Of a stretch of DNA of 64,000 nt, positions 18,579-58,812 are shown in pieces (within the stretch, counting starts at the first letter, position 1; each line of letters begins with the position of its first letter). Location: positions 4,650,001 through 4,714,000 of the forward strand of contig NC_017030.1 of assembly GCF_000255295.1 (NCBI RefSeq), read 5' to 3'. This DNA comes from Corallococcus coralloides DSM 2259. GTDB taxonomy: Bacteria > Myxococcota > Myxococcia > Myxococcales > Myxococcaceae. The notes under the pieces are model-generated. The model was not told the DNA's origin. It saw only the letters and a list, made by a program, of their open reading frames with translations, and did not search any database. The position numbers and the translations under genes are program-made.

Positions 18579-19048
18579 GGATCGGGCTGCGAGAGGTGAT
18601 GGGCGGTGGCGGGGATGACGGCCATGCTGCCCAGCCAGAAGATGAACCCGATGGAGGGGGAGAGCAGTTCCAGGTAGCGGTTCCCGCCGCTCTCATCCGC
18701 GGGGACGGGGTTCACGTACCAGGTGAGCGAAGACAGCGCGAGGACGCACGCCGCGCCGCCGACGCAGAGCGCCTTCCGGTCCGCGCCCGCGAGGAGCAGG
18801 ACGAAGGCCAGGGCCAGCAGGGGATTCGCGTACCAGCCGAACTGGAACGTGAAGACGCCCACCCAGCCCACGAGCAGCAGCGGCATGCCCCACATGTGTT
18901 CCTCGGCACGCTGGTTCGTGTTGTACACGGTCATCGCGGGCGTCGCACAGGCGAGCACGAAGAGCAGGGCCGACACACCACAGGCGGTGAGGCGTGTCTT
19001 CTGTTGCGACTGGGCGTGGGCGGAAGGCGCTGGACGGGGCGAGGTCAT
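18545..19048 (-). CDS. Small four-helix membrane protein, paralogue of its neighbour
   Basis: A 167-residue membrane protein with about four hydrophobic helices (ACGVSALLFVLACATPAMTV; LLLVGWVGVFTFQFGWYANPLLALAF; ALCVGGAACVLALSSLTW; IGFIFWLGSMAVIPAT). Its ATG at 19048 overlaps the stop of the upstream gene in an ATGA, so both are made together. The shared pattern GW.GV...FGW.ANPLL.LA in both proteins shows that they arose by duplication. No known function. Confidence 0.75.
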   Translation of the reverse strand: MTSPRPAPSAHAQSQQKTRLTACGVSALLFVLACATPAMTVYNTNQRAEEHMWGMPLLLVGWVGVFTFQFGWYANPLLALAFVLLLAGADRKALCVGGAACVLALSSLTWYVNPVPADESGGNRYLELLSPSIGFIFWLGSMAVIPATAHHLSQPDPQSSASPEPKA

Positions 19049-19491
19049 CGGGAAGGGGGCTTTCGAAGGAAGAGCGCCGCGACGGGGACAATCAGCAGGC
19101 TGGCCATCCAGACATAGAAGCCGATGGCGGTCCCCTGCACGTCGGAGTTGTAGGCGTGCATCGTGGCGATTGAAGACAGCCCGAGGATGCACGCCGTACC
19201 GCCGAACCAGAACGCCTTCTGGTTCCTCCTCAGCCCGAGCATGAAGAGCGCCACGAGCAGCAGGGGATTGGCGAGCCAGCCGAAGTTCCCGGAGACCACG
19301 CCCGTCCAGCCGATGAGCAGCAGGAACGCCCCATTCGTTGCCGAATCCCCCCCGCCGTGCGGAGTGCGAGTGATCAGCGCGGGCAGGAAGCAGGCGATGA
19401 CGTAGAGCCCGATGGACACGCTACAGGCCGTGAGGCGTGCGTTCGCGTCGTCGACGCCGCTGGCAGGACGGACCGGGGTGGATGAGGCCAT
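19045..19491 (-). CDS. Small four-helix membrane protein, paralogue of its neighbour
   Basis: A 148-residue membrane protein (LTACSVSIGLYVIACFLPAL; FLLLIGWTGVVSGNFGWLANPLLLVALFML; AFWFGGTACILGLSSI; FYVWMASLLIVPVAALFL). The motif LTAC, then GW.GV...FGW.ANPLL and GG.AC.L.LSS recur in the downstream gene product. First gene of a coupled two-gene unit. I do not recognise the family. Confidence 0.75.
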   Translation of the reverse strand: MASSTPVRPASGVDDANARLTACSVSIGLYVIACFLPALITRTPHGGGDSATNGAFLLLIGWTGVVSGNFGWLANPLLLVALFMLGLRRNQKAFWFGGTACILGLSSIATMHAYNSDVQGTAIGFYVWMASLLIVPVAALFLRKPPSR

Positions 19492-24828: not shown

Positions 24829-27800
24829 TCAGGACACGGTGTCGTAGGCGGGGGGCGCTTCCCTCGGCAGGTGGACCGTGAACGTCGTACCGGCCTCTTC
24901 GCTGGAGGCCACGCTCACGTGGCCCCCGTGCGCGCGCGCCACCTGCTGCACGATGTAGAGCCCCAGCCCCACGCTACGCGAGGACCGGCTTTCGTCATGG
25001 TGGCCGCGCCGCATGGCCTGGAAGAGCGTGGGCAGCATCTCCGGCGGAATGGGGCGGCCCCGGTTGTGGACCTCCAGCACCAGGTCGTCCCCCGCCTCGC
25101 GCGTGGACACCCGCACCGTGGCGCCCGGCTCGCCGTAGCGAAGGGCGTTGGTGACCAGGTTCTGCACCACCTGGCCCAGCCGCTCCTCGTCCCACGAGCC
25201 CAGGCCGTCGCCCTGTTGGTCCAGGACCACCTGCCGCTCCGGGAACGCCACCTGGACCTCCTCCAGCGCCCGGCGCGTGGCCTCGTGGAAGTCCATGCGG
25301 CGGCGGTGCACCGGCAGCCCTCCGCCCAGCCTCGCCTGGGTCACGTCCAGCAGGTCGCGGATGAGGCGGTTGGCGCGCTCGGCGCTGCTGATGATGCGGC
25401 CGGTGTTCTTCGTCGCGCGGTCCCCCAGGTCGTCACGCTGGAGCAGGGCATTCGCCGACAGGAGGATGGCGTTGAGCGGATTGCGCAGGTCGTGGCTGAC
25501 GATGCCAATGAGCTGCTGTTCGAACTCCCGCTGCTCCCGCGCCTCCGCCTCGCGCCGGTGGCGTTCGGTGATGTCGCGGCTCACCGTGGCGATGCCGATG
25601 TCCTCGCCCGTCGCGGCGTCGCGCAGCATGAAGAAGTTGTAGTGCACGGGCACCGCCGCCCCGGTGCGGAAGTTGCGGAGGCGGAACTCGCCGTCCCAGC
25701 GCCCGTGCTCGCGCAGCCTGGGCAGGATGACGTCGCGCACGTAGGGGCGGTCCTCCGTCAGGAAGTAGTCGAACAGGTGCGTGCTCCGCACCGCCTCCGG
25801 CCCCTCCAGTCCCAGCATCCGCTGGCCCGCCTCGTTGATGAACAGCGCCCGTCCGTCCGGCCCGCCAATGCCGATGAGGTCCGAGGACTGCTCCACCACC
25901 GCGATCAGCTTCTCGCGCTCCCGCTCCGCCTGACGCTGCTCCCGGCGCGCCCGCGCCGCCGCGAGGTTGCCCTCCACGCGCGCCAGCAGCTCCCGCGCGG
26001 AGAACGGCTTCACCAGGTAGGCGGTGGCGCCCATGCGCAGGCCCTCCACCGTGGCCTCTTCGCCGGCGCGCGCGGACAGCAGGATGACGGGCACGTGCAC
26101 CGTCGCCGGGTCCTCGCGCAGCCGCCGCAGGAGCCCGAAGCCATCCAGCTCCGGCATCATCACATCGCTGATGACGAGGTCCGGCATCCGGGCCCGGCAG
26201 ACCTCCAGCGCCTCCAGCCCGTTCGCCGCGAGCGTCACCTCGAAGCGCTCCGACAGCAGCGAATGCACATACGCGCGCATGTCCGCGTTGTCGTCCGCGA
26301 ACAGGACGTGGCCGCCCACGGTCCTTGTGAGGGGAGCGGGGGACGCGTCGACCGCGAGCATGGCTGGCATGCCCGCTGGCTCCGACCAGCCGGAAGCCTC
26401 TTCCAGGAACGCATCGAGGGTCGCGCCCGTCGGGACGCGCGCAGGCGTGGACGTGTTCTCGGTGGGGGCGGCCATGGAGGCCGCGTCCGCGGGCAGCGTC
26501 ACCGTGAAGGTGCTGCCCTGGCCGGGGTGGCTCTCCGCCTGCACGTCGCCGCCATGCAGGCGCGCCAGCTCCCGCACCAGCGCGAGCCCGATGCCGCTGC
26601 CCTCGTAGCTGCGTCCCTGCGCGCCCTGCACGCGGTGGAAGCGGTCGAAGATGCGCGGCAGTTCCTCCGGCGGGATGCCCGTGCCGGTGTCCACCACGCG
26701 CAGCACCACCTGCGTTCCCCGCCAGCGCAGGCTCACGCGGATGCCGCCCTGGTGCGTGAACTTGAACGCGTTGGAGATGAGGTTGAGGACGATCTTCTCC
26801 CACTGCTCCGGATCCACCTTCACGGGATGCGGCAGCGGGGGACAGTCCACGTCGAGCGTCAGGCCCGCGCGCTCCACGGTGGAGCGGAAGCCGCTGGCGA
26901 GCCCGCGGGTGAGCGCGGCGAGGTCGGTGGGCACCGCGGTGGCGTGCAGGCGGCCCGCTTCGATGCGGGAGAACTCCAGCAGCGTGTTGACGAGCTTGAG
27001 CAGCCGCAGCCCGTTGCGGTGCACCGTCCGCTGCCGTTCGAGCTGCCGGGGACCGAGCGGCTCCAGCGGATCCTGGAGGCCGTCCTCCACCGGCCCCAGC
27101 ATCAGCGCCAGCGGCGTGCGGAACTCGTGGCTCACGTTGCTGAAGAAGTCCGTCTTCGCGCGGTCCAACGCGGCCAGCGCCTCCGCGCGGCGGCGGTCCT
27201 CCTCACGAGCGCGGGCCTGGGAGATGGCCGTCGTCACGCCCCGGGCCAGCAGCTCCAGGAAGCCCCGGTACTTCTCATCGAGCGCGAGCCGGCGGCTCAG
27301 CCCCGTCACCAGGAAGCCCGCGGGCCGTGCATGTCCCACGCGCGGCAGGGGCTGCACGCACGCGGACGCCGTTCCCTCCGGCCACGGCCCCACCGCGACG
27401 GTGCCTGTCTCCCCAGGCAATCTCTCCCAGAGGAAGGTCGCGCCGGTGCTCGCGGCGGCCCCCAGGGGCCAGTCCGCGCCCGCCTCGCCGGGACCGTCCG
27501 GGAGGGGCAGGGTTTCGGGAGCGAGCGCATCCCCGGCGGTAAGTCCGCTGGTCCCGGCGAGCCGCGCGGTGCCGGTGGCGTCATCCACGAGGTAGAGCAG
27601 GGCGAAGGGCACGTCGAGCGGCGCCGCGGCGATGACGCGCAGGGCTTCGCGGCAGGCGTCCTCCGTGGTGGCCCGGTCCGAGGTGGAGGCCCCCAGCTCG
27701 CGCAGCGTGTCCAGCCGCCGCGTGCCCACCACCTGTCCGGTGGTTTCCTTGAGCGCCGCGAAGATGCCCGCCACGTCGCCGGACTCGTCGCGCACGGGCG

Positions 27801-28203
27801 AGTGGCTGTAGGTGAAGTAGCACTCCTCGACGAAGCCGTTGCGGTCGAGCGGCATCATCAGGTCATTGACGAAGATGGCCTCGCCGGTCCGGCGCATGCG
27901 CTCCCAGCCGGGGCCGAGCATGTGCCAGACCTCCGGCCAGGTGACGGGCGCGGCCTGTCCCAGGGCGGCGGGGTGCTTCGTGCGTCCGCAGATGGGCCGG
28001 TACGCGTCGTTGTAGAACTGGACGAACTCCGGGCCCCACGCGACGTAGAGCGGATAGTCGGAAGCGAGCACGATGCCGACGGCCGTGCGCAGCGACTGGG
28101 GCCACGTCTCCACGGGGCCCAGGGGCGTCTGCGCCCAGTCCACCTGGCGAAGCAGCGCGCCACAGGCGCCGCCACCTCGCAGGACTTCGTCTACCGCGCC
28201 CAT
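24829..28203 (-). CDS. Hybrid sensor histidine kinase with two transmitter modules
   Basis: A 1124-residue soluble signalling protein. Order of domains: PAS-like sensor (about 20-155, WGPEFVQFYNDAYRPICG), GAF (about 165-340), HisKA (His near residue 358 in NVSHEFRTPLALML), HATPase (GTGIPPEELPRIFDRF, GSGIGLALVRELARL), REC (DLVISDVMMPELDGF near residue 678, LLSARAGEEATVEGLRMGA), second PAS (LIGIGGPDGRALFINEAGQ), second HisKA (His near 904 in IVSHDLRNPLNAI) and second HATPase (GLGLYIVQQVARAHGGHV). No membrane segment is seen. Two kinase cores around one receiver suggest an internal relay. It converges on the permease gene; no response regulator is adjacent. Confidence 0.92.
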   Translation of the reverse strand: MGAVDEVLRGGGACGALLRQVDWAQTPLGPVETWPQSLRTAVGIVLASDYPLYVAWGPEFVQFYNDAYRPICGRTKHPAALGQAAPVTWPEVWHMLGPGWERMRRTGEAIFVNDLMMPLDRNGFVEECYFTYSHSPVRDESGDVAGIFAALKETTGQVVGTRRLDTLRELGASTSDRATTEDACREALRVIAAAPLDVPFALLYLVDDATGTARLAGTSGLTAGDALAPETLPLPDGPGEAGADWPLGAAASTGATFLWERLPGETGTVAVGPWPEGTASACVQPLPRVGHARPAGFLVTGLSRRLALDEKYRGFLELLARGVTTAISQARAREEDRRRAEALAALDRAKTDFFSNVSHEFRTPLALMLGPVEDGLQDPLEPLGPRQLERQRTVHRNGLRLLKLVNTLLEFSRIEAGRLHATAVPTDLAALTRGLASGFRSTVERAGLTLDVDCPPLPHPVKVDPEQWEKIVLNLISNAFKFTHQGGIRVSLRWRGTQVVLRVVDTGTGIPPEELPRIFDRFHRVQGAQGRSYEGSGIGLALVRELARLHGGDVQAESHPGQGSTFTVTLPADAASMAAPTENTSTPARVPTGATLDAFLEEASGWSEPAGMPAMLAVDASPAPLTRTVGGHVLFADDNADMRAYVHSLLSERFEVTLAANGLEALEVCRARMPDLVISDVMMPELDGFGLLRRLREDPATVHVPVILLSARAGEEATVEGLRMGATAYLVKPFSARELLARVEGNLAAARARREQRQAEREREKLIAVVEQSSDLIGIGGPDGRALFINEAGQRMLGLEGPEAVRSTHLFDYFLTEDRPYVRDVILPRLREHGRWDGEFRLRNFRTGAAVPVHYNFFMLRDAATGEDIGIATVSRDITERHRREAEAREQREFEQQLIGIVSHDLRNPLNAILLSANALLQRDDLGDRATKNTGRIISSAERANRLIRDLLDVTQARLGGGLPVHRRRMDFHEATRRALEEVQVAFPERQVVLDQQGDGLGSWDEERLGQVVQNLVTNALRYGEPGATVRVSTREAGDDLVLEVHNRGRPIPPEMLPTLFQAMRRGHHDESRSSRSVGLGLYIVQQVARAHGGHVSVASSEEAGTTFTVHLPREAPPAYDTVS

Positions 28204-28390: not shown

Positions 28391-29725
28391 TCAGGCGACC
28401 TCGTGCGCGGTTCGGGCCCAGCGCACTCCATCCAACCCCAGGCTCCGCACCTCGGCCTCCATCAACGCGCCGTACTGCTCCTCGACCCATTGGCGGAAGT
28501 AGGCGTCCGGCGCCGCGAGCACCAGGTGTCCGTCCTCCAGTCCCACCGCGCGGGCCTTGCCCAGCCACGACAGCGCGTACCGCTTGCCCTGCGCGCGCAC
28601 CCCCTCCAGGCAGGCACTCCAGACGCGCGCCGCTTCCGTGGACGCGCCTTCGTCCGTGGCAGGTCCGCCGGAGGCTTCGGAGTCCACCTCCGCACCGTCC
28701 TCCAGGGGCGGGACGTAGCGCGTCCACACCCGGGGCGAGCAGAACGCGATCACGGTGCCCGGAGGCTGCCGGGCGCGGCCCCAGTCGGACTGGAGGTAGC
28801 CCTGGCAGGCCGCATGGAGCCGGGCCTCGTCGCCGGCCACGCCGCGCAGCGCCTGGGCGTACCAGTCCGCCCAACCGGCGGGCGGCTTCTCGCGGGGCAC
28901 GCCGCGGAAGGTCCGGGCGCGGGCGTCCTGGAAGGTGTCGAAGAAGGCCGCCGCGCGGGCGGCCAGGGTGGGGGCGGGGAGCGGACGTCCGGCGTCCGGG
29001 GACGGCGCGGGGGCGTCCTCGCGGGGCGGGGTGGCGGGGACCAGGTGCGTGCCGGGGAGGGAGAGCTGGATGGGGTCCTGCTCCGCGTCCGGGGGCGTGT
29101 CCTCGATGGGCATGAGCGCCACGGGGGCCAGGTGGGCCGTGAGCGGCGGCGCGGTTTCCAGTTCATCCAGGCCGGCAGCAGCAGATGAAGATCTCTTTTT
29201 CTCCTTCTCCCTTCTGTTTCTGGGGGAGGACGTCCCTGCCGTGTCCCGCGGACGTCCGGCGGACACATCGAGCCCCTTCGCGGCGGCCCGTTCCCTCCGC
29301 TTGCGCTCGGCCTCCTTCTTCCGCTTGTCGAGCACTCCGACGTAGCGATCGCAGAGGGTGAGGCGCACGCCGTCCTCTTCACGGACCAGGAGGCGGGCAT
29401 GGAGGAGGGCGGACCAGAAGGCGCCGGGCGTGCCCGTCCAGCGGACGGCGGACTCCAGCGCTTCGATCCACACGGCTTCGTCCAGGGACGCGTCCCACGC
29501 CTGTCCGCCGGACATGTCCGCGGACGGTCCGAAGGACACGAAGCGCCCTTCGGGCAGGGCCTGCACGGCCCAGATCTGCAGCTCCACCATCGCGCCCAGG
29601 AACGCGCGCCGCTCCATGCCCAGGGCACGCGCGGCGCCGATCACCGCGAGGCTCATGGGGAAGCCCACGTCCACCTGAACCCAGTCCAGACCCGCCACGT
29701 CCACGCCTCCCAGCCCGGACACCAC
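28391..29725 (-). CDS. Protein with C-terminal DnaA domain I-like region
   Basis: A 444-residue protein. The N-terminal ~130 residues (FPMSLAVIGAARALGMERRAF... ) look like a winged-helix replication-organiser type domain, followed by a Lys/Arg-rich stretch (KRKKEAERKRRERAAAKG), a Pro-rich linker and a helical region (WADWYAQALRGVAGDEARL). The last ~75 residues (ARVWSACLEGVRAQGKRYALSWLGKARAVGLEDGHLVLAAPDAYFRQW in parts) match the pattern of DnaA domain I. No AAA+ ATPase or DnaA box-binding domain is present. The start is uncertain: GTG 29725 has a poor ribosome site. It resembles phage/plasmid replication-initiation proteins, but no phage genes are nearby. Confidence 0.55.
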   Translation of the reverse strand: MVSGLGGVDVAGLDWVQVDVGFPMSLAVIGAARALGMERRAFLGAMVELQIWAVQALPEGRFVSFGPSADMSGGQAWDASLDEAVWIEALESAVRWTGTPGAFWSALLHARLLVREEDGVRLTLCDRYVGVLDKRKKEAERKRRERAAAKGLDVSAGRPRDTAGTSSPRNRREKEKKRSSSAAAGLDELETAPPLTAHLAPVALMPIEDTPPDAEQDPIQLSLPGTHLVPATPPREDAPAPSPDAGRPLPAPTLAARAAAFFDTFQDARARTFRGVPREKPPAGWADWYAQALRGVAGDEARLHAACQGYLQSDWGRARQPPGTVIAFCSPRVWTRYVPPLEDGAEVDSEASGGPATDEGASTEAARVWSACLEGVRAQGKRYALSWLGKARAVGLEDGHLVLAAPDAYFRQWVEEQYGALMEAEVRSLGLDGVRWARTAHEVA

Positions 29726-30024: not shown

Positions 30025-32268
30025 TCAGGGAGGAACGCAACCACCCGTGGAGGCGGGGCTGATCACTGCTCCACTGTTGAGGACGCAGGACTGAACGCTG
30101 CGCAGGTGGATGGATCCCGCGGCGCCTCCGCCACCGCCGCCGCCTCCACCGTAGTTGAGCAGCACCGCCGTTCCGTCATCGCCAGGGGCAGGCTTGCTAA
30201 AACTGCCACCCGCGCCACCGTTGCCACCCGCGGTAGCAAGGCCGGAGCCGCCGTTGGCTCTGCTGCCGCTGTCCTCGCTGCCATTCGAGCCATTGGCTCC
30301 GTGACTTGAGGTATCGGAGCTCGCGGCGGCGCCCTCTCCACCACCGCCACCATTGGCGGTGAGCCGAGCGTTGGACGTCAGGTTCACCTGGAAGGCTTCC
30401 AGCACAATGCGGCCCCCGCTCCCTCCGCCACCGCCACCCGCTGCCGCAGTAGGCGAAACGCTCGCCTTGCCACCCAGTCCACCGCCGCCACTCACGGAGA
30501 GGATCTTCCCGATGGTCAGTCTCCTGGCCACGGAGATCTGGAGTGCGCCACCGCCTGCACCGCCGAACCCACCGGCTGCGCTGCCCGTGCCTCCACCATT
30601 GCCGCCCGCACACCCACCAAGGAGGGGCGAGAGGGAGGAGCCCTGCACGGCGCCTGCGCCGCCCCATGCTGCGTTGGGGTTGTAGCCCCAGCCGCCATTG
30701 GCTCCGGCCGTCGCTCCGCCCGCGCCACCTCCGCCTCCGCCCTGACCTTCGCTGTAGAGCCCGTTCTTGCCCTGTGATGCGGTGCACGCCTGATTGCCTC
30801 CGGCTCCGGGGACCGGTGCACCGTTCACGATGCGCCCGCTGGCCAGGATGTCGTGATTCAGCGTCGCATCCCCATACACGGCGAGGATGACCGGACGGCT
30901 GCCCACGATGCGCAGCTCGCCGCCCAGGGCCAGGGTCCGCACCGGGATGAGCAGGGTGTTGGGTGCACCTCCAGACTGGGGCAGGAGCTTGATGGTGAAC
31001 GCGCTGGTGTCCGGGCCGGTGGCCACGGGCGTCCAGGACAGCGTGTCCGTATCGAACACCCCCGCTCCGGTGGTCCTCAGCTCGCCAATCTCACCGCCAG
31101 GAATGATGTTCGGATTGAAGTTGCTGGGCGTGTACGGGAACGCGACGCACTGGCCCGTCGCGCTGCACACGCGCGGAGTTCCCGCGCCGTCTTCGCTGCA
31201 GGGCAGATTGAGCCGAGCCGGATCCCCCGAATAGATACAGGAGTTGTTCGCCGTGCAGCCCGCGACCGTGTTGCATTCCCTGGGAGGGCAGGGCGTGTCC
31301 GTGCCGATGCACGTGCCATTGCCATCGCAGAAGCCCGAGGTGTGGCAGACATTGCCGTCCACGCAGGACGTGGTGGCCGGCTTGGGAGAGTACTCACAGC
31401 TGCCGGTGGTCGGGTTGCAGGTGCCCATGGGCTCCTGACACTGAGGGTTCGCTGGCACGGGGCACATCCGCACATCGCCCACGCACTGCCTATCAGCCGT
31501 GCAGCGGTCATCGGTCATGCACGGATTCCCGGAGTCGCAAGCCTGGCCCACCGGTACGGAACCTTCGATGCATGCACCCGTGGAGGCTTCGCAGGTCACC
31601 GTGGGCTGGCATTGCCCGGGCGTCTGGGTGCACTTCGGCGTTCCACCCGCGCACATCGCCGCGGCGCCAATCCCCACGCATCGCTTGTCCACCGTGCACG
31701 GGTCCCCGTCCGTGCACGTCTTCTCCGTGCAATCGCTGTCCGCGCACGACTTGTGACCGTCGCAGTCGTAGTCGACATTCGCGTCGCATTGTTCCGTAGC
31801 GCCTGGATGAACATCCGCCCGCGTGTCATCGCAGTCGGGCGACTCCACGCCGGGACCGCTCGCGACGAAGCCGTCACCATCCGCGTCCACCGCCCGCAGG
31901 GTGACGGTCCAGTCAATGGACTTTCCGGCGGGTGCATCCAAAGCGCGGTCCTCGTGAACCTCCACGAGCGCTCCCGTGCATTGATTGCCGCTGAAGGCCG
32001 CGAACGAAGTCGCCTTGACGTTGAGCCGTTCGCCCCACGCCGGCTTGCGGACCATCGCGACCTGGATCTCTTTCGCGTCAGGGTCCTTGAACTGACTGGA
32101 GGGAAGGTCGGTTCCCGCCTGGTTGATTCCGTCACCGACCTCCACGCGCAGGCACTGGGGCCTGTAGGAGGGGTACTTCACCGTCACGCGAAGCACGCCC
32201 TCGGCGGGGTCCTTCATGCGGCAGGCGGAGAGCAGCACCATGCAGGTCAATAGACAGAACAGACGCAT
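30025..32268 (-). CDS. Surface lipoprotein, Cys-rich then Gly-rich (paralogue 3 of 3)
   Basis: A 747-residue protein with signal [16 protein letters not shown] (Cys16). After a ~120-residue N-terminal domain comes a MopE-like metal-binding motif (DADGDGF...[18 protein letters not shown]), then about 200 residues of repeated Cys-rich units ([27 protein letters not shown]), a middle beta domain ([18 protein letters not shown]) and a C-terminal ~260 residues dominated by GG and GGGGG blocks, ending [18 protein letters not shown]. Two longer homologues lie upstream on the same strand. A surface or secreted adhesive/structural role is inferred; no enzyme motif is seen. Confidence 0.85.
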
Positions 32269-32276
32269 GGTGCCGC

Positions 32277-32306
32277 ACTGTACCCGTCAGCCCTCTGTTA
32301 CTGGAA
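32277..32306 (-). promoter_or_regulatory. Candidate promoter TTCCAG-N18-TACAGT
   Basis: On the minus strand TTCCAG (32306-32301) and TACAGT (32282-32277) are separated by 18 bp; TACAGT ends 8 nt before the ATG and no Shine-Dalgarno sequence is seen. The same pair with the same spacing precedes the next paralogue. TTCCAG is part of a 12-bp palindrome CTGGAATTCCAG (32301-32312). Confidence 0.4.
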
Positions 32307-32325
32307 TTCCAGGAGGCGGCGGGCG

Positions 32326-34572
32326 TCAGAGAGGCTGGCAGCCTCCCGTGGCGGCGGGGCTGATCACATAACCGTCTGCCTGGGTGCAGCTCTGGAGGCT
32401 GCGCAGATAGATGGAGCCCGCGGCGCCACCGCCGCCACCGCCACCGCCACTACCCAACACGACCGTTCCTCCGTTTTCACCAGAAGTGGGCGTGTTCGAG
32501 GTGCCACCCTTGCCACCATCTCCACCCGTGGTGGCGCCATCCTTGCCGCCGTTCGCGCTGGTGGCGGTGTCCTCGCTGCCACTGATGCCATCCGCTCCTG
32601 GATTCGCGACGCCAGCGCCGGCGCCGCCACCCTCTCCACCGCCGCCGCCATTGGCGGTAAGCCGCGCGTTGGACGTCAGGCTCACCTGGAAGGCTTCCAG
32701 CACGATGCGGCCCCCGCTCCCACCGCCGCCGCCACCCGCCGCAGCGTCATTCGAAGCGTTCGCCTTGCCGCCCAGGCCACCGCCACCGCTCACGGAGAGG
32801 GTCTTGCCGACAGTCAGCGTCCTGGCGACGGAGATCTGAATCGCGCCACCTCCCGCGCCACCAGGCCCACCGGCCGCGTTGCCCGTGCCTCCACCCGCAC
32901 CTCCCGCGCACCCGCCGAGGAGTGGAATGAAGGCCGATGCCTGCAGCGAACCTCCGTCGCCCCGCGTGGCGTTGGCGTTGAGGCCCCTGCCGCCATTGGC
33001 TCCGGCCGTCGCGCCACCCGCGCCACCTCCGCCTCCGCCCTGTCCCCCGCTGAATGTCCCGTTATTGCCCTGTGACGTGGTGCACGCTTGATTGCCTCCG
33101 GCTCCGGGAACTGGTGCGCCATTCACGATCTGCCCGCTGGCCAGGATGGAGTGGTTCAGCGTCGCATCCCCATACACGGCGAGGATGACGGGGCGGCTGC
33201 CCACGATGCGCAGCTCACCACCCAGAGCCAGGGTCCGTACCGGGATGAGCAGGATGTCGGGTGCGCCTCCGCCCTGGGCCACGGTCTTGAGGGTGAATGC
33301 AGTGGTGTCCGGGCCTCCGTTCGCCTGGGGTGTCCAGGTCTGGGTTTCCGTGTCGAACACCACCGCTCCGGTGGTCCTCAGTTCGCCAATCTCACCGCCA
33401 GGAATGGCGTTCGGGTCGAAGTTGCTGGGCGTATACGGGAACGCGACGCACTGGCCCGTCACGGTGCACACGCGCGGCGTTCCGGACTCGTCCAGGCTGC
33501 AGGGCAGGTTGAGCTGGGCCGGGTCTCCCGAATAGACGCAGGAGTTGTTCGCCGTGCAGCCCACGGCGGTCTTGCACTCCATGGGAGGGCAGGGCGTGTC
33601 CGTGCCGATGCACGTGCCATTGCCATCGCAGAACCCCGGTTCATGGCAGACGTTGCCGTCCACACAGGACGTGGTGACCGGCTTGGGAGTGTACTCACAG
33701 ATGCCGTTGGTCGGGTTGCAGGTGCCCGTGGGCTCCTGGCACGCGGGGCTCGTCGGCGTGGTGCACGTCTTCAAGGTCCCCACGCACTGCTTGTCGGCAG
33801 TACAGCGGCCATCGGTCATGCACGGGTTCCCGGGGTCGCAAGCCGCGCCCTCCTGCACGTTCCCCTCGATGCACTCACCCGTGGAGGACTCGCACGTCAC
33901 CGTCGTCTGGCATTGACCCACGGACTGCTGGCACTTGGGCGTGCCACCTCCGCACTGCGCCGATGCCCCCACGCCGATGCACCGCTTGCCCGTGTTGCAC
34001 AGGTCGCCGTCCGTGCACGTCCTCTCCGTGCAGTCCGAATCCGCGCACGCGAACTTCCCATCACAGTCGTAGTCGATGGTCGTGTCGCACTTCTCCTCTG
34101 CGCCCGGGCGGACGTCCGCCTTCGTTTCGTCGCAGTCGGAAATGCCTGCCCATTCGATGCCGGAAGGAGAGCCGTCGCCGTCAGCGTCCACCGCCTTCAG
34201 CGCCACGTCGAAGCGCGTGTACTCCTTGGGAACGATCGTGAGCGCGGCGTTCGTGAACCGCTCCACCGCCTCACCCGAGCACCGGTTGCCGTCAGTCTCC
34301 GCGTACGACGACACCGTGAGGTCCAGCGTCGCGTCCCAGTCCGCCTTGCGGCGCACCGCGACCAGGACTTCATTCTTCTCCGCGTTCTTGAACTGGCTGG
34401 AGAGGATGTCCGTGGCTTCCTGGTGCCCGTTCGCATCCTTCGCCTCCACGCGCACGCACGCGGGCTTGAAGGAGCCGTACTTCACGGACACGCGGATGGC
34501 GCCTTCGTCGGGAGCCTTCTCCCGACAGGCAGCCAGCAACACCACACATCCCAGCAGGCAGAGCCGATTCAT
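32326..34572 (-). CDS. Surface lipoprotein, Cys-rich then Gly-rich (paralogue 2 of 3)
   Basis: A 748-residue paralogue of its two neighbours: signal MNRLCLLGCVVLLAAC, N-terminal domain (KAPDEGAIRVSVKYGSFKP, nearly identical to the third copy), MopE-like motif (DADGDGSPSGIEWAGISDCDE...CDTTIDYDCDG), Cys-rich units, beta domain and a Gly-rich C-terminus ending SLQSCTQADGYVISPAATGGC. Its C-terminal two-thirds are closest to the 30025-32268 copy while its N-terminus is closest to the 34627-36816 copy, a mosaic that points to recombination between the copies. ATG 34572 rather than GTG 34581 because it begins the lipoprotein signal. Confidence 0.85.
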   Translation of the reverse strand: MNRLCLLGCVVLLAACREKAPDEGAIRVSVKYGSFKPACVRVEAKDANGHQEATDILSSQFKNAEKNEVLVAVRRKADWDATLDLTVSSYAETDGNRCSGEAVERFTNAALTIVPKEYTRFDVALKAVDADGDGSPSGIEWAGISDCDETKADVRPGAEEKCDTTIDYDCDGKFACADSDCTERTCTDGDLCNTGKRCIGVGASAQCGGGTPKCQQSVGQCQTTVTCESSTGECIEGNVQEGAACDPGNPCMTDGRCTADKQCVGTLKTCTTPTSPACQEPTGTCNPTNGICEYTPKPVTTSCVDGNVCHEPGFCDGNGTCIGTDTPCPPMECKTAVGCTANNSCVYSGDPAQLNLPCSLDESGTPRVCTVTGQCVAFPYTPSNFDPNAIPGGEIGELRTTGAVVFDTETQTWTPQANGGPDTTAFTLKTVAQGGGAPDILLIPVRTLALGGELRIVGSRPVILAVYGDATLNHSILASGQIVNGAPVPGAGGNQACTTSQGNNGTFSGGQGGGGGGAGGATAGANGGRGLNANATRGDGGSLQASAFIPLLGGCAGGAGGGTGNAAGGPGGAGGGAIQISVARTLTVGKTLSVSGGGGLGGKANASNDAAAGGGGGGSGGRIVLEAFQVSLTSNARLTANGGGGGEGGGAGAGVANPGADGISGSEDTATSANGGKDGATTGGDGGKGGTSNTPTSGENGGTVVLGSGGGGGGGGAAGSIYLRSLQSCTQADGYVISPAATGGCQPL

Positions 34573-34579
34573 GGCCCGC

Positions 34580-34609
34580 ACTGTACCTGTCGTTCCTTGC
34601 CGACTGGAA
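34580..34609 (-). promoter_or_regulatory. Candidate promoter TTCCAG-N18-TACAGT
   Basis: Minus-strand TTCCAG (34609-34604) and TACAGT (34585-34580) with an 18-bp spacer, 7 nt before the ATG at 34572. It matches the arrangement before the neighbouring paralogue at 32268 although much of the spacer differs. Confidence 0.4.
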
Positions 34610-34626
34610 TTTCAGGTCAGGATGGC

Positions 34627-36816
34627 TCAGGGGGCCGTGCACCCACTGGAAGGACTGACCACGGCGCCAATGTCGATGGCACAAGACTGGACGCTGCGCA
34701 GGTGGATGTGGCCCGCGGCGCCACCCCCGCCACCACCACCGCCGCGTGTTCCAAATCCATCCTGGGTGCCATCGCTGCCCATGACGGGCACCGTCATCCC
34801 TGCGCCGCCCGCGCCGCCCCCGCCGCCCGTGGTGTTTCCCGTGTTGCCTCCACTGGCAGGGGTTGCCGTCGTCTGGGAGCCGTTGGTGCCACCCGAGCCT
34901 GCATTGTTGGCGTCGGAGCCTCCCTTGCCTCCACCACCCCCGTTGGCGGTGATTCGTGCAGCGGACGTGAGTTGAATCTGGAAGGCCTCCAGGACGACGC
35001 GCCCGCCACTTCCTCCTCCACCGCCGCCAGCCCCGGCGGAGCCACTCGCCTTGCCACCTTCTCCGCCGTTGCCGCTCGCAGAGACGTTCTTGGACACGGT
35101 CAGCGTGCGTGACACCGAGAGTTGGAGTGCGCCGCCTCCCGCTCCACCCTTGCCGCCCGCGGCGGATGCATTGCCGCCACCATTGCCTCCCGCGCAGCCG
35201 CCCAGAAGGGGCTCGGGCGTGGTGGGGCGGCTGATGCCCGCTCCGCCCTGCGTCGCACCATTGCTGGTCTTGCCACCGCTTGCGCCGGAGGTCCCGTTCC
35301 CCGCTCCACCACCGCCACCCCCCGTGGAGCCGGAGTAGGTTCCGGCAACGCCGTTGGACGCACCGCACTCCGTATTCCCATTCGGGATGTTGCCGGTGGT
35401 CAGGATGGACTGGTTGACGTTCGCGTCTCCATACACGGCCAGGATGACCGGGGAGGGGCCCTTGATGGTCAGATCCCCCTTCAGGTCCAAGACCCGCACC
35501 GGAATGAGGAGTGCCGGCGGTCCGCCCGCCTGGGGAATCGAGATGATCTTGAGCGTCCCCGCGGTCGTGATGGCTCCCGCGGGAGTCCAGCTCGAATCGG
35601 TGGTGTCGAACGTCACGTTCGCATTGGTCCGCAGCTCCCCGATGTCCGTGGCAGCAATGCTGTTCGGATCGAAGTTGTAGGGCCGGTAGGGGAACGGGGT
35701 GCAGGTGAGATCCGCCTGGCACACGCCTGGAACTCCAGCCGAGGTCGTGCAGAGCCCGTTGACGTCGGGCTCGAACTCGCACTCGTTGCTCGCCGTGCAC
35801 TGCTGCTTGACGCGGTAGCACGTCTGCGGCGTGCAGGTCGTGGGCGTGCCCACGCAGTGCCCGTTCCCGTCGCAGCGGTCCGGCGTGGTGCACGCGAGCG
35901 GGTCCTGACAGGCGGTCGTGTCCGGGAGCGGAGTGAAGACACATTGGCCGTTGGCCGGGTTGCACGTCCCCGAACTGGCCAGACACTGCTCCGAGGTGGT
36001 GCACGTCCGCGCGGTGCCGCCGCACTTCCCATCGGCCCCGCACGTGTCTCCATCCGTGCATGCGTTCCCGTCGTCACACGTCTTGCCCACGGTGGACTCC
36101 ACGACTTCACAGAGCCCGGAGGTGGGATTGCACGTCTGACGCGCGTCGCAGACGCCCGTGGGCTGGGTGCACGTCGTCGTCTGCGTGGGCACGCACTTCG
36201 CTTCCAGGCCCGAGCCCTCGCAGCGGTCCCCCGTCGTGCAGGCATTGCCGTCGTCGCACGGATTGCCCCAGCAGTTCGCCTCCTGGCAGCCCGTCCGCTC
36301 GTTGCAGTTGAGGTCCACGGTGGAGCCACAGGTCTCCGTGGCGCCCGGATGAACGGCCGGATTCGAGTCATCACAGTCCGCGGGCTCGCCCCACATGGCG
36401 CCCGCCAGATGACCGTCACCATCTCCGTCCGTCGCCTTCAGCGTCACCTCGAAGTTCGTGAACTTCCTGGCGACGATGGTGAGGGGCCCAGCGCTCGAGT
36501 GCTGCTCCACGAAGGGGCCGTCACAACCGGTGGGGGTCGCGGAAGCGTACGAAGACGCCGTCACGTTCAGCGCCGTGTCCCAGTCCGCCTTGCGGCGCAC
36601 CGCGACCAGGACCTCGTTCTTCTCCGCGTTCTTGAACTGGCTGGAGAGGATGTCCGTGGCTTCCTGGTGTCCCTTCGCGTCCTTCGCCTCCACGCGCACG
36701 CACGCGGGCTTGAAGGAGCCGTACTTCACGGACACACGGATGGCGCCTTCGTCGGGGGCCTTCTCCCCACAGGCGGCCAGGAGCACCACACATCCCAACA
36801 GGCAGAGCCGATACAT
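34627..36816 (-). CDS. Surface lipoprotein, Cys-rich then Gly-rich (paralogue 1 of 3)
   Basis: A 729-residue lipoprotein: signal MYRLCLLGCVVLLAAC, N-terminal domain, metal-binding motif (GDGDGHLAGAMWGEPADCDDSNPAVHPGA), Cys-rich units (CEGSGLEAKC, CDDGNACTDGDTC, CTTSEQC), a beta domain ([21 protein letters not shown]) and a Gly-rich tail ending [18 protein letters not shown]. It is first in the set and diverges from the other two in the Cys-rich and Gly-rich parts. ATG 36816 is selected because an upstream in-frame start at 36885 adds 23 residues before the signal; TACAGT lies 8 nt before the ATG. Confidence 0.85.
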   Translation of the reverse strand: MYRLCLLGCVVLLAACGEKAPDEGAIRVSVKYGSFKPACVRVEAKDAKGHQEATDILSSQFKNAEKNEVLVAVRRKADWDTALNVTASSYASATPTGCDGPFVEQHSSAGPLTIVARKFTNFEVTLKATDGDGDGHLAGAMWGEPADCDDSNPAVHPGATETCGSTVDLNCNERTGCQEANCWGNPCDDGNACTTGDRCEGSGLEAKCVPTQTTTCTQPTGVCDARQTCNPTSGLCEVVESTVGKTCDDGNACTDGDTCGADGKCGGTARTCTTSEQCLASSGTCNPANGQCVFTPLPDTTACQDPLACTTPDRCDGNGHCVGTPTTCTPQTCYRVKQQCTASNECEFEPDVNGLCTTSAGVPGVCQADLTCTPFPYRPYNFDPNSIAATDIGELRTNANVTFDTTDSSWTPAGAITTAGTLKIISIPQAGGPPALLIPVRVLDLKGDLTIKGPSPVILAVYGDANVNQSILTTGNIPNGNTECGASNGVAGTYSGSTGGGGGGAGNGTSGASGGKTSNGATQGGAGISRPTTPEPLLGGCAGGNGGGNASAAGGKGGAGGGALQLSVSRTLTVSKNVSASGNGGEGGKASGSAGAGGGGGGSGGRVVLEAFQIQLTSAARITANGGGGGKGGSDANNAGSGGTNGSQTTATPASGGNTGNTTGGGGGAGGAGMTVPVMGSDGTQDGFGTRGGGGGGGGAAGHIHLRSVQSCAIDIGAVVSPSSGCTAP

Positions 36817-36893
36817 GGCGCCGCACTGTAGCGAACACTTCCCAGGGCAGGGAGCGGGGCCATCCAGACCCCGACCCCCTGTCACACGGTGTT

Positions 36894-39308
36894 TCAGCCG
36901 CGCAGGGACACCACGGTGACGCCGTCTCCGCCCTCGTGGCTCTCACCGGGGCGGAACATGCGGATGTAGGGCGACGCGGCCAGGTGGTCCCGGATGGCCT
37001 GCTTGAGCGCTCCGGTGCCGTGGCCGTGGATGATGAGCGCGGCCTCCTCACCCTTGCGCAGGCCCTGGTCCAGGAACGTCTCCAGCTCCGCCAGCGCGTC
37101 GTCCGCGCGCATGCCGCGCACGTCGCAGCGGAAGTTCGTGGCCTCCACCTGCGACGGCGCCGCGGAGGCCGCGCGCTTCAGGGCCGCTTCGCCCTTGCGC
37201 TGCTCCGGGAACTTCGCCTGCTGCGGCTTCTTGCCTCGCGACCCGGACAGCTCCGTCGTGGGCACGCGCATCTTCAGCGCGCCGCCCGCGGACACCACCG
37301 CCTGGCCGTCCGTCAGCTCCAAAATCTCCACGTCCCGGCCCAGGCCGGAGTGGTGCACCCACGCGCCCACCTTGAGGTTCGCGGGCCCCGGGGCCTCCAC
37401 CTGGAACAGCTCCGCCTTGGCCGCCGTCGCGCGCTTCAGCGCCTCGTCCGCGCGCTGCTGTAGCTGCATCCGCGCCTCGGAGAGCGCCTTCTCGTTCTGC
37501 TCGGAGCGCAGCTTCGTCAGGAGGTCGCGGACCTCCTGGGCGGCGTGCTCGCTGGCCGCATGCACGTCCTCGTTGAACTGCATCATGCGGCCCTTGCGCT
37601 CGCGCTCGAAGGCGACCTTCTGCTTCTCCAGGTCCGCGCGGAGGGCCTCCGCCTCCTTCGCCGCGATGCGCGCCTTCTCCAGCTCCTCGGAGAGCTTGCG
37701 CCGCTCGTCCTCCGCCGCCGCCAGCGCCTTGGTGAGCGGGCCGCCCGCGTTGAGCGACAGCTCCCGCGCGCGCTCGCACACGGAGGTGGGCAGGCCCACC
37801 CGCGCCGCCACGTCGATGGCGGACGATTGACCGGACGCGCCCATCTGCAGCCGGAACGTGGGCGCCATCCGCTTGGAGTCGAAGCCCACGCGCGCGTTGA
37901 GGAAGCGCGGATCCATGTGCGCCAGCGCCTTGAGCTCCTCCAGGTGCGTCGTCACCAGGACGTACGCCCCCTTGCCCAACAGCTCCTCCAGCACCGCGAT
38001 GGCGATGGCCGCGCCCTCGCGCGGATCCGTGTCCGACGCGATCTCGTCGATGAGCACCAGCGAGTCCGTCGCCACCGCTGCCAGGATGTCCCGCAGCAGG
38101 GTGACGTGGCCGCTGAACGACGACAGGCCCTGCGACAGGTCCTGCGTGTCACCCACGGTGGAGTGCACGGAGCGGTACAGCGGCATCCGCGACCCTTCGC
38201 CCACCGGGATGGGCAGGCCCGCGCGCAGCATCAGCGCGCACAGCCCCACGCCCGTCAGCGTCACCGTCTTGCCGCCCGCGTTGGGGCCGGAGACCACCAG
38301 CGCCCGGGCGCTCTCGGTGAGCGTCACGTCGTTGGACACCACCTCCGTGCCCTTGAGCACCAGGCGCGGGTGGCGCAGCCCGCGCAGCTGCAGCTCCTTC
38401 ACACCCTCGAAGGTGGGCGTCGTGGCATCCAGGTCCGCGGACAGGGTGGCGATGGCCTCCACCTCGTCCAGCTCCGCCACCGCTTCCAGGCCCTCCAGCA
38501 TGCGCGCGGACTCACGGCCCACGAGCCGGCTCAGCTCCTGGAGGACCTTGAGCTCCTCCTCCGCGACCTCCGACTGCGCGATGGCCAGGTCGTTGCCCAG
38601 GCCCACCATCGCCTGGGGCTCCATGAAGAGCGTCTGCCCCGTCTGGCTGGCGTTGTGGACGATGCCGTCCACCTCCGCGCGGTAGTTCGACACCACCGGC
38701 ACCACGTACCGCCCGTTGCGCAGCGTGTAGTAGTTCTCGCGCAGCTTGGCGGTGAACGTCAGGTCGTGGAGCATCTCGTCCAGGCGCGCCTTGATCCGCC
38801 GGTGCAGGCCGCGTGCGCGGTCCCGCGCGTCCTTCAGCTCCGGGCTGGCGCGGTCGGAGATGGTTCCGTCCGGCTCGAAACACTGATCCAACCGGCGCGC
38901 CATGGCCTCCAGGAAGGGCAGGCGCTTGGAGATCTCCACCAGGCGGGGGACGCGCTCCTTGCGCTCGTCCAGGGCCTCGCGGGTGCGGGCGAAGGCGAAG
39001 AGCAGCTGGGCCGCGTCGATGAGCTGGCGGGGCTCCAGCACGCCGCCCTTCTCCGCGTGGCCCACCGCGGTGCGCAGGTCCGTCACGCCGCCCAGGGGCA
39101 GGGAGAACTGCTGCTGGGAGAGGAAGCGGGCCTCGTCGACGAGGGCCAGCGCTTCGGCCACTTCCGTCTCGGTGTCCAGGAATGGACGGGCCAGCACCCG
39201 CTCCCTCCCTGGCTCGGTGCGGCAGCGCTGCGTCAGCGCGCGGAGCACTTCCGAGAAACCAAGGTCTTCCAACGTCCTTTGGGAAATCTGCACAGTCATG
39301 GGTTTCAT
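36894..39308 (-). CDS. mutS2: MutS2 family ATPase with C-terminal Smr domain
   Basis: An 804-residue MutS2. Regions seen: N-terminal clamp/core (FSEVLRALTQRCRTEPGRERV), a connector with TLRNGRYVVPV, ATPase with Walker A GPNAGGKT near residue 344, Walker B SLVLIDEIASDTDP, a long coiled coil (about 500-640, rich in Glu/Lys/Ala) and the C-terminal Smr nuclease domain with DVRGMRADDA and HGHGTGALKQAI. MutS2 acts on branched DNA and on stalled/collided ribosomes in other bacteria. ATG 39308 is used; 39299 is an in-frame alternative. Divergent from a TPR gene. Confidence 0.95.
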   Translation of the reverse strand: MKPMTVQISQRTLEDLGFSEVLRALTQRCRTEPGRERVLARPFLDTETEVAEALALVDEARFLSQQQFSLPLGGVTDLRTAVGHAEKGGVLEPRQLIDAAQLLFAFARTREALDERKERVPRLVEISKRLPFLEAMARRLDQCFEPDGTISDRASPELKDARDRARGLHRRIKARLDEMLHDLTFTAKLRENYYTLRNGRYVVPVVSNYRAEVDGIVHNASQTGQTLFMEPQAMVGLGNDLAIAQSEVAEEELKVLQELSRLVGRESARMLEGLEAVAELDEVEAIATLSADLDATTPTFEGVKELQLRGLRHPRLVLKGTEVVSNDVTLTESARALVVSGPNAGGKTVTLTGVGLCALMLRAGLPIPVGEGSRMPLYRSVHSTVGDTQDLSQGLSSFSGHVTLLRDILAAVATDSLVLIDEIASDTDPREGAAIAIAVLEELLGKGAYVLVTTHLEELKALAHMDPRFLNARVGFDSKRMAPTFRLQMGASGQSSAIDVAARVGLPTSVCERARELSLNAGGPLTKALAAAEDERRKLSEELEKARIAAKEAEALRADLEKQKVAFERERKGRMMQFNEDVHAASEHAAQEVRDLLTKLRSEQNEKALSEARMQLQQRADEALKRATAAKAELFQVEAPGPANLKVGAWVHHSGLGRDVEILELTDGQAVVSAGGALKMRVPTTELSGSRGKKPQQAKFPEQRKGEAALKRAASAAPSQVEATNFRCDVRGMRADDALAELETFLDQGLRKGEEAALIIHGHGTGALKQAIRDHLAASPYIRMFRPGESHEGGDGVTVVSLRG

Positions 39309-39374
39309 GCGAGGCCGGGTGTCCGTCAAGGGGAAGTATTGAGGTGGCCCACCGGGACCTGCTATCTGCCAACC

Positions 39375-40109
39375 ATGATGTGGGTTCTCGTGGCGGCGCT
39401 GCTTGCGGGCGCGTCCGACGCACCGGCCTCTCCGGTCCTGACGGCGCAAGCAACCCCGGCCCCCAGTCCGCTTGCGGATGCGCTGGCGTTGGAGACCGCG
39501 GGCAACGACGCGGGAGCCCTCGTTGCCCTGGAGCGGCTGATTACTAACCAGCCCCGCTGGGAGCTGCCTCGGCTGGAGGCCGCGCGGCTGCTCCTCAAGG
39601 GAGGCAGCGCCCCGGAGCTGGAGCGCGCCCGGACCCATCTGGACACGGCCCTGCGCGAGGCCCCGGACAACCCCCGCGTGTACTTCCTCCAGGGGCAGCT
39701 GCTGGAGGAGCAGGGCGCCACCTTCGACGCCATCCGCGCCTATGAGAAGGCCGTGTCCCTGCGCCCGTCCTATGACGACGCGAGGTTCCGGCTCGCGGGC
39801 CTCTGGGCCCAGGCGGGGGACTGGCTCAAGTCAGAGCTGCACTACCGCCCCCTGTCCAAGTCCCGGCCCGCGTGGGTGCAGGTGCGCATGCAGCTGGCGG
39901 TGGTGCTGGAGAAGCAGGGCCGCACGCTGGACGCGGAGCGGGAGTTCCTGGCCGCGCGCGACGCCCAGCCGGACAACCCGGGCGTCCTGAGGACCCTGGC
40001 GGCGTTCTACGAGCGGACGGACAGGCCCCAGCTCGCAGCGAAGGTGAGGGCGCAGCTGACGGCGCCGGCGAAGCGCAACATGCGGGCCCTCAAACCTTCG
40101 AAGCGCTGA
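39375..40109 (+). CDS. Exported TPR-repeat protein
   Basis: A 244-residue protein with a short signal-like N-terminus (MMWVLVAALLAGASDAPASP) and about four to five tetratricopeptide repeats: ALALETAGNDAGALVALERLI, ARTHLDTALREAPDNPRVYFLQGQLLEEQG, TFDAIRAYEKAVSLRPSYDDARFRLAGLW and EREFLAARDAQPDNPGVLRTLAAFYERTDR. It probably scaffolds protein contacts in the periplasm. The start is the ATG pair at 39375/39378. The cyclase gene follows 67 bp downstream. No specific partner is apparent. Confidence 0.8.
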   Translation: MMWVLVAALLAGASDAPASPVLTAQATPAPSPLADALALETAGNDAGALVALERLITNQPRWELPRLEAARLLLKGGSAPELERARTHLDTALREAPDNPRVYFLQGQLLEEQGATFDAIRAYEKAVSLRPSYDDARFRLAGLWAQAGDWLKSELHYRPLSKSRPAWVQVRMQLAVVLEKQGRTLDAEREFLAARDAQPDNPGVLRTLAAFYERTDRPQLAAKVRAQLTAPAKRNMRALKPSKR

Positions 40110-58803: not shown

Positions 58804-58812
58804 GGAGCCGTG

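Follow-up and report, generated by a model that had tools for sequence, protein, structure and literature searches.

A recombining array of lipoprotein genes after mutS2 in Corallococcus, with a possible role in adhesion or recognition

The closest described systems are the following. TraA is a polymorphic myxobacterial adhesin with Cys-rich repeats and with alleles that are believed to recombine (PMC6372800), and the SitA proteins are polymorphic myxobacterial lipoprotein toxins with related N-termini, encoded in three tandem Mx-alpha units (PMC5562445). The PGRS part of the PE_PGRS proteins has been modelled as a polyglycine-II sandwich (PMC9436101), and the gp38 tips of phages are beta-helices with a polyglycine-II sandwich and distal variable loops, in which Gly-rich motifs are separated by hypervariable segments (PMC6851490, PMC12892980). 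No prior description of the lipoprotein family considered below was found in the literature covered, which left most subscription journals outside its scope.

Within the window (the whole stretch of 64,000 nucleotides that was analysed, from Corallococcus coralloides DSM 2259), three intact lipoprotein open reading frames are listed in tandem on the minus strand: gene A (34627..36816, 729 aa), which is the first copy after mutS2, gene B (32326..34572, 748 aa), and gene C (30025..32268, 747 aa), with stop-to-start spacings of 54 and 57 nt. The array is anchored on its 5' side by mutS2 (MutS_V and Smr; 36894..39638 as listed, minus strand; the portion taken for comparison starts at 39386) and is flanked on its 3' side by a gene for a DnaA_N-domain protein (28391..29725, minus strand), a flank that recurs in several congeners. 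A lipobox-type sequence, read without a signal-peptide program, ends at Cys16 in each of A, B and C and is the basis of the lipoprotein call. Pfam recognizes a single domain per protein, the MopE metal motif PF11617 (Cu-binding_MopE; 36.2 bits in A, 27.5 in B and 32.9 in C, against a gathering cut-off of 27), which matches 12 of 13 aligned members of the family at E up to 1. The likeness to MopE of Methylococcus (2VOV) is limited to this motif (hmmsearch E 0.0026, profile positions 126-175).

Each protein has the same order of parts. With positions given for B, all on the minus strand, these are a putative lipid anchor, a small predicted beta-sandwich (residues 20-129; 34186..34515), a MopE-type, putatively metal-binding motif (residues 146-173; 34054..34137, with counterparts at 36295-36378 in A and 31753-31836 in C), a Cys-rich stalk that is probably disulfide-bonded (residues 176-376; 33445..34047), and a C-terminal head predicted to be a beta-helix-like scaffold bearing Gly-rich motifs and variable loops (residues 375-748; 32329..33450, corresponding to 34630..35703 in A and 30028..31149 in C). 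The shared architecture of lipobox, MopE motif, Cys-rich and Gly-rich parts that the sequence-only reading had proposed is borne out for all three genes. Its term "PGRS-like" holds for composition, but neither Pfam on A, B and C nor a search of the 13 members gave a match to the PE/PGRS family by sequence. The PE_PGRS proteins of mycobacteria have a Gly-rich domain in common with the array proteins, whereas the latter lack a PE domain and have a putative lipid anchor and predicted beta-strands between the Gly-rich motifs.

A lipobox and related N-termini in polymorphic myxobacterial lipoproteins are also features of SitA, and the array could conceivably encode SitA-like polymorphic toxins that pass between cells by outer membrane exchange. 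However, neither Pfam nor NCBIfam recognizes a toxin domain in the array proteins, no immunity gene is present in the 54- and 57-nt gaps between copies, and the C-terminus retains conserved Gly-rich blocks. With neither a toxin domain nor an immunity gene, we rejected a SitA-type identity and regard it as highly improbable.

Among the 41 Cys columns of B, 31 contain Cys in every copy that reaches them, eight more in 25 of 30 copies, and the two in the signal peptide in 29 of 30. In the head, six Gly-rich blocks of 10 residues have entropies of 0.27-0.57 bits, and the most variable blocks between them have 1.7-2.0 bits. The fold of the head (C-terminal third) is predicted with confidence (pTM 0.86), and structural matches to the model include beta-helices (Z 8.9 and 8.7) and the gp38 tips (PF05268) of S16 (6F45; Z 7.0 over 164 residues) and PP01 (9V85; Z 6.4 over 172 residues), scores that equal or barely exceed what a common arrangement alone can produce. 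The modelled head resembles beta-helices and, weakly, phage gp38 adhesins. Foldseek returned E values of 0.17 and 1.9 for the head against gp38; in the viral library the best two matches were giant-virus PA14 and collagen-like proteins (E 3e-4 and 6e-4), and a gp38-domain protein appeared at E 0.16. The whole model had no Foldseek match at E up to 0.001, and searching the PDB by sequence with the head yielded chance matches only. Structural matches to the N-terminal sandwich include Bacteroidales fimbrial adhesins and many Ig-like domains (Z 6.5-8.1), which is too unspecific to be informative.

In contrast to gp38, A, B and C are bacterial lipoproteins with a sandwich, a MopE motif and a Cys-rich stalk, they occur in one to three copies per intact array, and they lack a match to the gp38 sequence family. 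PF05268 had no match in the 13 members at E up to 1 or in the whole genome, and control genomes were likewise silent. A phage origin of the head was rejected, with no match for A, B or C in PHROGs and none by tblastn in 50,697 phage records (E up to 1, low-complexity filter on). The head would act like the receptor-binding tip of phage gp38, a likeness proposed for function rather than for descent.

Sliding-window identity among the three genes, a check suggested by the sequence-only reading, shows that divergence is uneven along them (40-column windows, with segments). In windows within columns 1-80, A and B are 93-97% identical in nucleotide sequence, and from column 81 on they are 49-73% identical; by segment, the values are 93-96% for residues 1-80 (36577..36816 in A, 34333..34572 in B, minus strand) and 49-71% for the rest. 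B and C are 69-71% identical in windows within columns 1-80, 50-62% in columns 81-180 and 71-90% in columns 221-640; by segment, the values are 69% for residues 1-80, 50-62% for residues 81-175 and 74-90% for residues 176-640, including a common tract at B residues 265-540 (32953..33780, minus strand; 77-90% by segment) whose counterpart in C is 30652..31479 (minus strand, ends approximate). Third-position identity shifts together with overall window identity in both comparisons. When B was compared with A and C by maximum chi-square, 115 of 147 informative sites were A-like left of the break and 113 of 578 right of it; for third positions only, the counts were 45/63 and 52/222, and in both cases none of 2000 shuffles reached the observed value. 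The segment trees are incongruent (AU p 7e-6, 5e-50 and 4e-4, for clades picked after the trees were inspected). Sliding windows, maximum chi-square and segment trees agree, and gene B, with its A-like N-terminus and C-like body, is a true mosaic made by recombination. The earlier description of B as matching the first copy at the N-terminus and the third elsewhere is correct on both counts, but residues 81-175 match neither well.

Conservation of the N-terminus by protein-level selection alone was rejected because the A/B synonymous distance also falls there (0.16, versus 0.35-0.64 in other segments). A mosaic of the opposite kind is found in the congener G012, in which residues 1-80 are 62-65% and residues 401-748 are 81-95% identical in nucleotide sequence. 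The N-terminal tracts are equally similar between species and within genomes, which means that recent conversion inside a genome stands out for some pairs only (e.g., in G012 and G002). Judged from head identity, possible own-genome conversion between the heads of B and C is not clearly shown, since an other-species head is equally close (0.83 nucleotide identity for the own head, 0.85 for the other); such conversion is clear in G012 (0.88 for the own head, 0.74 for the other).

The array lies directly after mutS2 in all 16 Corallococcus genomes examined, one per species. The eight intact arrays contain full-length copies only (1, 1, 2, 2, 2, 2, 3 and 3), eight of the 16 assemblies break within the array, and the reading frame stays open over 692-760 aa in the 20 complete copies. 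Tail-only partial copies were found inside contigs of two drafts, G005 (two) and G007 (one); these may reflect decay, partial copies or assembly errors, the drafts having more than 1200 contigs. Copy number and sequence vary between species, and so uniform divergence with a single fixed sequence, the outcome that would have spoken against the sequence-only reading, does not hold at the species level; the copy-number comparison it had proposed across strains was made here with one genome per species. Of that reading, mosaic formation by recombination and variation between species are supported, and a surface location and a part in kin recognition, adhesion or phage defence are candidate properties. 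The mutS2 anchor throughout the genus, the promoter-like elements, the two N-terminal types and the predicted folded head lay beyond what the letters alone could show. No mutS2 was found near 15 loci taken from other genera, and the neighbours therefore yield no functional lead.

The lipoproteins are also more divergent than the genes around them. Their pS is 0.26-0.54 and their amino acid identity 45-83%, B and C being compared with the best, often non-orthologous, copy in congeners with fewer copies; the corresponding neighbour medians, from 27-31 genes per congener, are 0.11-0.17 and 91-95%. This raised synonymous divergence indicates that divergent alleles have been exchanged. For B versus G014, pS (0.26) does not reach the neighbour maximum (0.34), and the neighbour at 19045-19491 shares only 39% identity with its G014 counterpart. 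Along a single gene pair, G000_1/G014_2, pS rises stepwise, from 0.12-0.15 up to 0.44-0.61, and it can be low in the head (0.09 at residues 491-590 in G015_3/G011x_3), which makes mutation rate or codon use unlikely as the entire cause. GC3 is lower in the head (0.75-0.76) than at the N-terminus (0.85-0.90), which may inflate pS there. Mosaics arise by exchange both within arrays and between lineages.

Such a pattern might arise through neutral concerted evolution, in which duplicated housekeeping or structural lipoproteins recombine as similar neighbours while their loops drift under relaxed constraint. Near-identical tandem tracts favour ectopic recombination, and the assembly breaks within the array, the predominance of segments with pN < pS, and the presence of only one copy in some genomes (G001 and G013) are all in keeping with this. 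Yet relaxed protein constraint does not raise pS, which is approximately 2-5 times the neighbour median and is raised even between the single-copy syntenic genes of G001 and G013 (0.43, against a neighbour median of 0.20 and maximum of 0.31, n=27), and the Cys and Gly-rich motifs remain conserved. We therefore consider this explanation unlikely, although it retains appreciable weight.

A -10-like element, TACAGTGC, begins 14 nt before the ATG of A (36823..36830), 13 nt before that of B (34578..34585) and 14 nt before that of C (32275..32282), all on the minus strand, and these are the only three such sites in the 64-kb window. TANNNT starts at -13 or -14 in 30/30 long copies (G008_1 being counted after its start was shifted by one codon), compared with 3/33 other window genes having TANNNT starting at -16 to -11. 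All 30 long copies have a start, a lipobox and a promoter-like element; the lipobox column is Cys in all 30, partly by construction because the lipobox pattern set the starts of most copies. Every complete copy would be transcribed separately, probably as leaderless mRNA. Variation from silent cassettes, with promoterless or partial donors, appears doubtful from these sequence features, but partial donors could exist in some genomes, given the tail-only pieces in the G005 and G007 drafts.

In Myxococcus FibA, Ala at position +7 of the mature protein directs the lipoprotein to the extracellular matrix, and replacing this Ala by Asp causes it to be retained in the outer membrane (PMC3222651). 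Our location clues are a reading of the +2 and +7 sorting residues. Among the 30 long copies, 26 carry Asp or Glu at mature +7 and four carry Ala (G000_3, which is gene C, G006_4, G004_2 and G012_3); in 4/4 intact arrays with an Ala copy, that copy comes last. Two N-terminal types, which differ in Asp/Glu versus Ala at +7, were assigned from a segment tree, with C belonging to type II and G011x_2 being type II by the tree yet having Glu at +7. Four of 17 within-genome pairs share a head type (0.80-0.88 nucleotide identity at residues 377-560; the other 13 are at most 0.65), and all four combine type I with type II, i.e., 4/8 such pairs versus 0/9 type I-type I pairs (one-sided Fisher p 0.03, a post hoc test in which pairs within a genome are non-independent). 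G004 has no matched head pair, and in G000 and G006 other-species heads are as close as the own one. These patterns might be read as a mix-and-match recognition kit in which recombination would join variable heads to one of two addresses, a reading that we consider improbable. If it were true, the presence of the same head on the cell surface and in the matrix would provide lineage-specific cell-to-matrix adhesion, and the head would be the cellular counterpart of the phage gp38 tip.

The explanation that we favour, with modest confidence, is that A, B and C represent one instance of a recombining array, found across Corallococcus, that encodes lipid-anchored proteins for adhesion or recognition. 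These proteins would sit at the cell surface or within the matrix, the variable loops of the head would bind a ligand, and selection for diversity would maintain module exchange. Social recognition is a special case of this explanation, in which the heads would drive homotypic or matched cell-cell or cell-matrix adhesion, TraA-like in effect. By analogy with TraA, a known polymorphic myxobacterial adhesin (PMC6372800), this is a tentative possibility: close species diverge while the anchor is conserved, but heads within one cell mostly differ (13/17 pairs below 0.66 nucleotide identity at residues 377-560), and the variable PA14 domain of TraA had no match in the 13 members at E up to 1. Polymorphism and a Cys-rich part are common to TraA, the outer-membrane-exchange receptor, and the array proteins, whereas the latter have the Cys-rich part before the head, a putative N-terminal lipid anchor and tandem copies. 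A, B and C had no match in NCBIfam, a MYXO-CTERM tag included, and no C-terminal hydrophobic helix with a basic tail was seen by eye. A second special case is an arms race with phages, in which envelope proteins serving as phage receptors would vary to escape adsorption. Hypervariable surface-type lipoproteins exchanged between lineages would fit this idea, but variable loops flanked by conserved motifs are just as compatible with a binding head, and a PADLOC search for defence genes had no match for A, B or C, leaving it rather doubtful.

If the array does encode adhesin or recognition proteins, it would be a further polymorphic surface system of predatory social bacteria, beside TraA and SitA. 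The natural chimeras would then map specificity, and the three adjacent genes would offer a ready genetic test. The two N-terminal types would provide a route to ask whether recombination redirects a protein between the cell surface and the matrix. The locus would further hint that bacteria may use, on their own envelope, the glycine-rich tip architecture known from phage adhesins.

Immediately after mutS2, the minus strand carries a recombining, hypervariable lipoprotein array of three genes: A encodes 729 aa (34627-36816), B 748 aa (32326-34572) and C 747 aa (30025-32268), with intergenic gaps of 54 and 57 nt. Each protein consists of a lipid anchor, a predicted beta-sandwich, a MopE motif, a Cys-rich stalk and a C-terminal head (residues 375-748 of B). 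The MopE metal motif is the sole Pfam match in each, and none of the three has a match in NCBIfam, PHROGs or PADLOC; among the 13 members of alignment A2, one matches NCBIfam NF033662, an acidic double-disulfide repeat (2e-12). Elsewhere in the genome, B has a single match at E up to 0.001, which is distant and N-terminal (32%, residues 26-173, near 5.79 Mb), and the head has no further match there.

The proposal of the sequence-only reading that the copies are mosaics is borne out by segment identities, maximum chi-square breaks and conflicting segment trees. Nucleotide identity between A and B is 93-96% for residues 1-80 and drops to 49-71% further on; between B and C it is 69% for residues 1-80, 50-62% for 81-175, 74-90% for 176-640 and 68-69% for 641-748. 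Third codon positions shift along with these identities. The maximum chi-square method located a breakpoint in B, and seven more triplets also showed one. Over 16 runs (eight triplets, all sites and third positions, 2000 shuffles each), the observed value was reached by no shuffle in 15 and by 11 of 2000 in the remaining one (copy G011_2, third positions). The topologies of three segment trees of 29 copies conflict: for clades chosen post hoc, once the trees had been viewed, AU tests rejected the body clade with the N-terminal data (p 7e-6) and the N-terminal type II clade with the middle (p 5e-50) and head data (p 4e-4). Mosaic patterns vary between genomes of the genus, with identities of 62-65% at residues 1-80 versus 81-95% at 401-748 in G012, and of 93-95% at residues 1-125 and 49-69% over the rest compared (to 540) in G002.

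The array also stands out from its surroundings in divergence. Against five congeners, neighboring genes (27-31 per comparison) have a median synonymous divergence (pS) of 0.11-0.17 and a median protein identity of 91-95%, versus 0.26-0.54 and 45-83% for the three lipoproteins, with B and C paired with the best copy available per congener and possibly non-orthologous in G001, G012 and G013. For A, the copy adjoining mutS2, the values are 0.35-0.47 and 64-75%. Exceptions are B versus G014, whose pS of 0.26 is below that of the highest neighbor there (0.34), and the neighboring gene at 19045-19491, whose identity in G014 is 39%. The excess is not accounted for by paralogy, because G001 and G013, which each have one syntenic copy, also differ more at this gene than at its neighbors (pS 0.43 versus a median of 0.20 and a maximum of 0.31, n = 27). 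Between G000_1, from the genome of the window, and G014_2, pS rises from 0.12-0.15 through residue 310 to 0.28 at 311-400 and 0.44-0.61 beyond, the pattern expected of exchange with old, divergent alleles. GC3 is lower in the head and may contribute further to pS there. In several pairs, nonsynonymous divergence (pN) at residues 81-125 is as high as pS or higher (0.36 and 0.35 for G000_1/G000_2; 0.46 and 0.33 for G012_2/G012_3), a hint of diversifying selection.

Other features of the window include 39-bp repeat arrays (7252-7469, 7550/7569-7718 and 7805-7911) with a palindrome-like TCCGAC-GTCGGA core. Searches of the syntenic 80 kb of five congeners matched a large hybrid histidine kinase beside the lipoprotein locus (24829-28203) in G012 only, and gave no match longer than 5% of the protein for a HEAT-repeat protein (58810-60468).

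The family, with a copy directly after mutS2, was found in all 16 Corallococcus genomes examined (one per species). Eight arrays are intact, with one copy in G001 and G013, two in G004, G009, G012 and G014, and three in G006 and the genome of the window, G000, where the window lies within a single contig of 10,080,619 bases. The array hits a contig end in the other eight assemblies, so copy numbers there are lower bounds only and these genes are under-reported in draft genomes. Tail-only head pieces (about 30 to 137 residues) inside contigs of two drafts are either decayed copies or misassemblies: two in G005 (L125, contig C681, 1034-1129 and 2054-2209) on a 949-base direct repeat, 83% identical, and one in G007 (L054, contig C948, 5195-5578) that starts at a Gly-rich stretch. 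In G012, a cluster of large ORFs (979-1269 aa; C1, 6467256-6501470) matches the Cys-rich stalk in many short stretches.

A search with A over 98 relatives, scoring at most 11 candidates per genome, gave matches at E up to 0.001 in at least 65; none of 15 loci from other genera has a mutS2 match nearby. At two syntenic loci of other genera (L093, L094, L095, L099 and L087-L089), the homologs vary more than most flanking genes. Identities are 62-64% in one syntenic set (flanking genes with a match, 78-100%) and 50-73% in another (mostly 76-95%, some 57-71%). For three genomes of genus g24 (G038, G049 and G055), coverage among the matches listed is limited to residues 3-210. In L098 (6682-8739), from one of these three genomes, and L012 (559-2019), a distant paralog from the genome of A-C, a related N-terminal module (signal peptide, sandwich-like part and MopE-type motif) is followed by another kind of C-terminal part, suggesting that the module may serve as a general anchor across Myxococcaceae. 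This C-terminal part appears propeller-like by eye.

A full-length model built from 13 sequences (pLDDT 70, pTM 0.49) has a predicted beta-sandwich at residues 20-129. Its matches to Bacteroidales adhesins and many Ig-like domains (Z 6.5-8.1) are too unspecific to carry weight. The head alone (B 375-748) gave a model with pLDDT 82.6 and pTM 0.86, for which Foldseek returned just six matches in the PDB (E up to 10), led by two phage gp38 tips (E 0.17 and 1.9). In VIA-align, two beta-helices scored Z 8.9 and 8.7 and the gp38 tips 7.0 and 6.4; matches of the predicted fold to both are borderline. In a viral structure library, the best matches were a Bathycoccus virus PA14-domain protein (E 3e-4) and a Pandoravirus collagen-like protein (E 6e-4), with a gp38-domain protein at E 0.16. 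In gp38, Gly-rich motifs on a beta-helix are described as building a polyglycine-II sandwich, and variation of the loops between them as accompanying host range (PMC6851490, PMC12892980). Entropy in the head, computed over the copies reaching each block, is 0.27-0.57 bits in six Gly-rich blocks, 1.7-2.0 bits in the most variable blocks in between, and 0.55-1.6 bits in strand-like and remaining blocks. No sequence link to gp38 was found with family profiles in the 13 members and the whole genome, where control genomes were also silent, or in phage genomes.

At position +7 of the mature lipoprotein, 26 copies carry Asp or Glu and four, including gene C, carry Ala. According to a study of M. xanthus, seven of ten matrix lipoproteins have Ala at +7, and replacing Ala with Asp in FibA results in retention in the outer membrane (PMC3222651). 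The Ala copy is the final gene in all four intact arrays having one; in G000, G006 and G012, but not G004, another copy in the genome has the same head type. The four form a single clade in the N-terminal tree, so Ala at +7 probably arose once. If the M. xanthus rule carries over to Corallococcus, an address swap between copies is possible.

The long copies look expressed. The window has three occurrences of the element TACAGTGC, one for each start codon (A, B and C) and starting 13-14 nt ahead of it; at least three matches occurred in 2 of 100 shuffles, so the count by itself is modest, unlike the placement. All 30 copies have TANNNT starting at -13 or -14 (G008_1 after its start was shifted one codon upstream to ATG), and none has a simple Shine-Dalgarno match. 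Among 33 other window genes, TANNNT starts at -16 to -11 in three, a weak control since their starts were set mechanically. The pattern fits separate transcription of the copies, probably as leaderless mRNAs, which we infer.

The architecture and evolution of the array make an adhesin or recognition function the best inference. The lipoproteins form a new family of a known kind, mosaic polymorphic proteins of putative surface location; their head is unusual, and their address may be swapped between copies.
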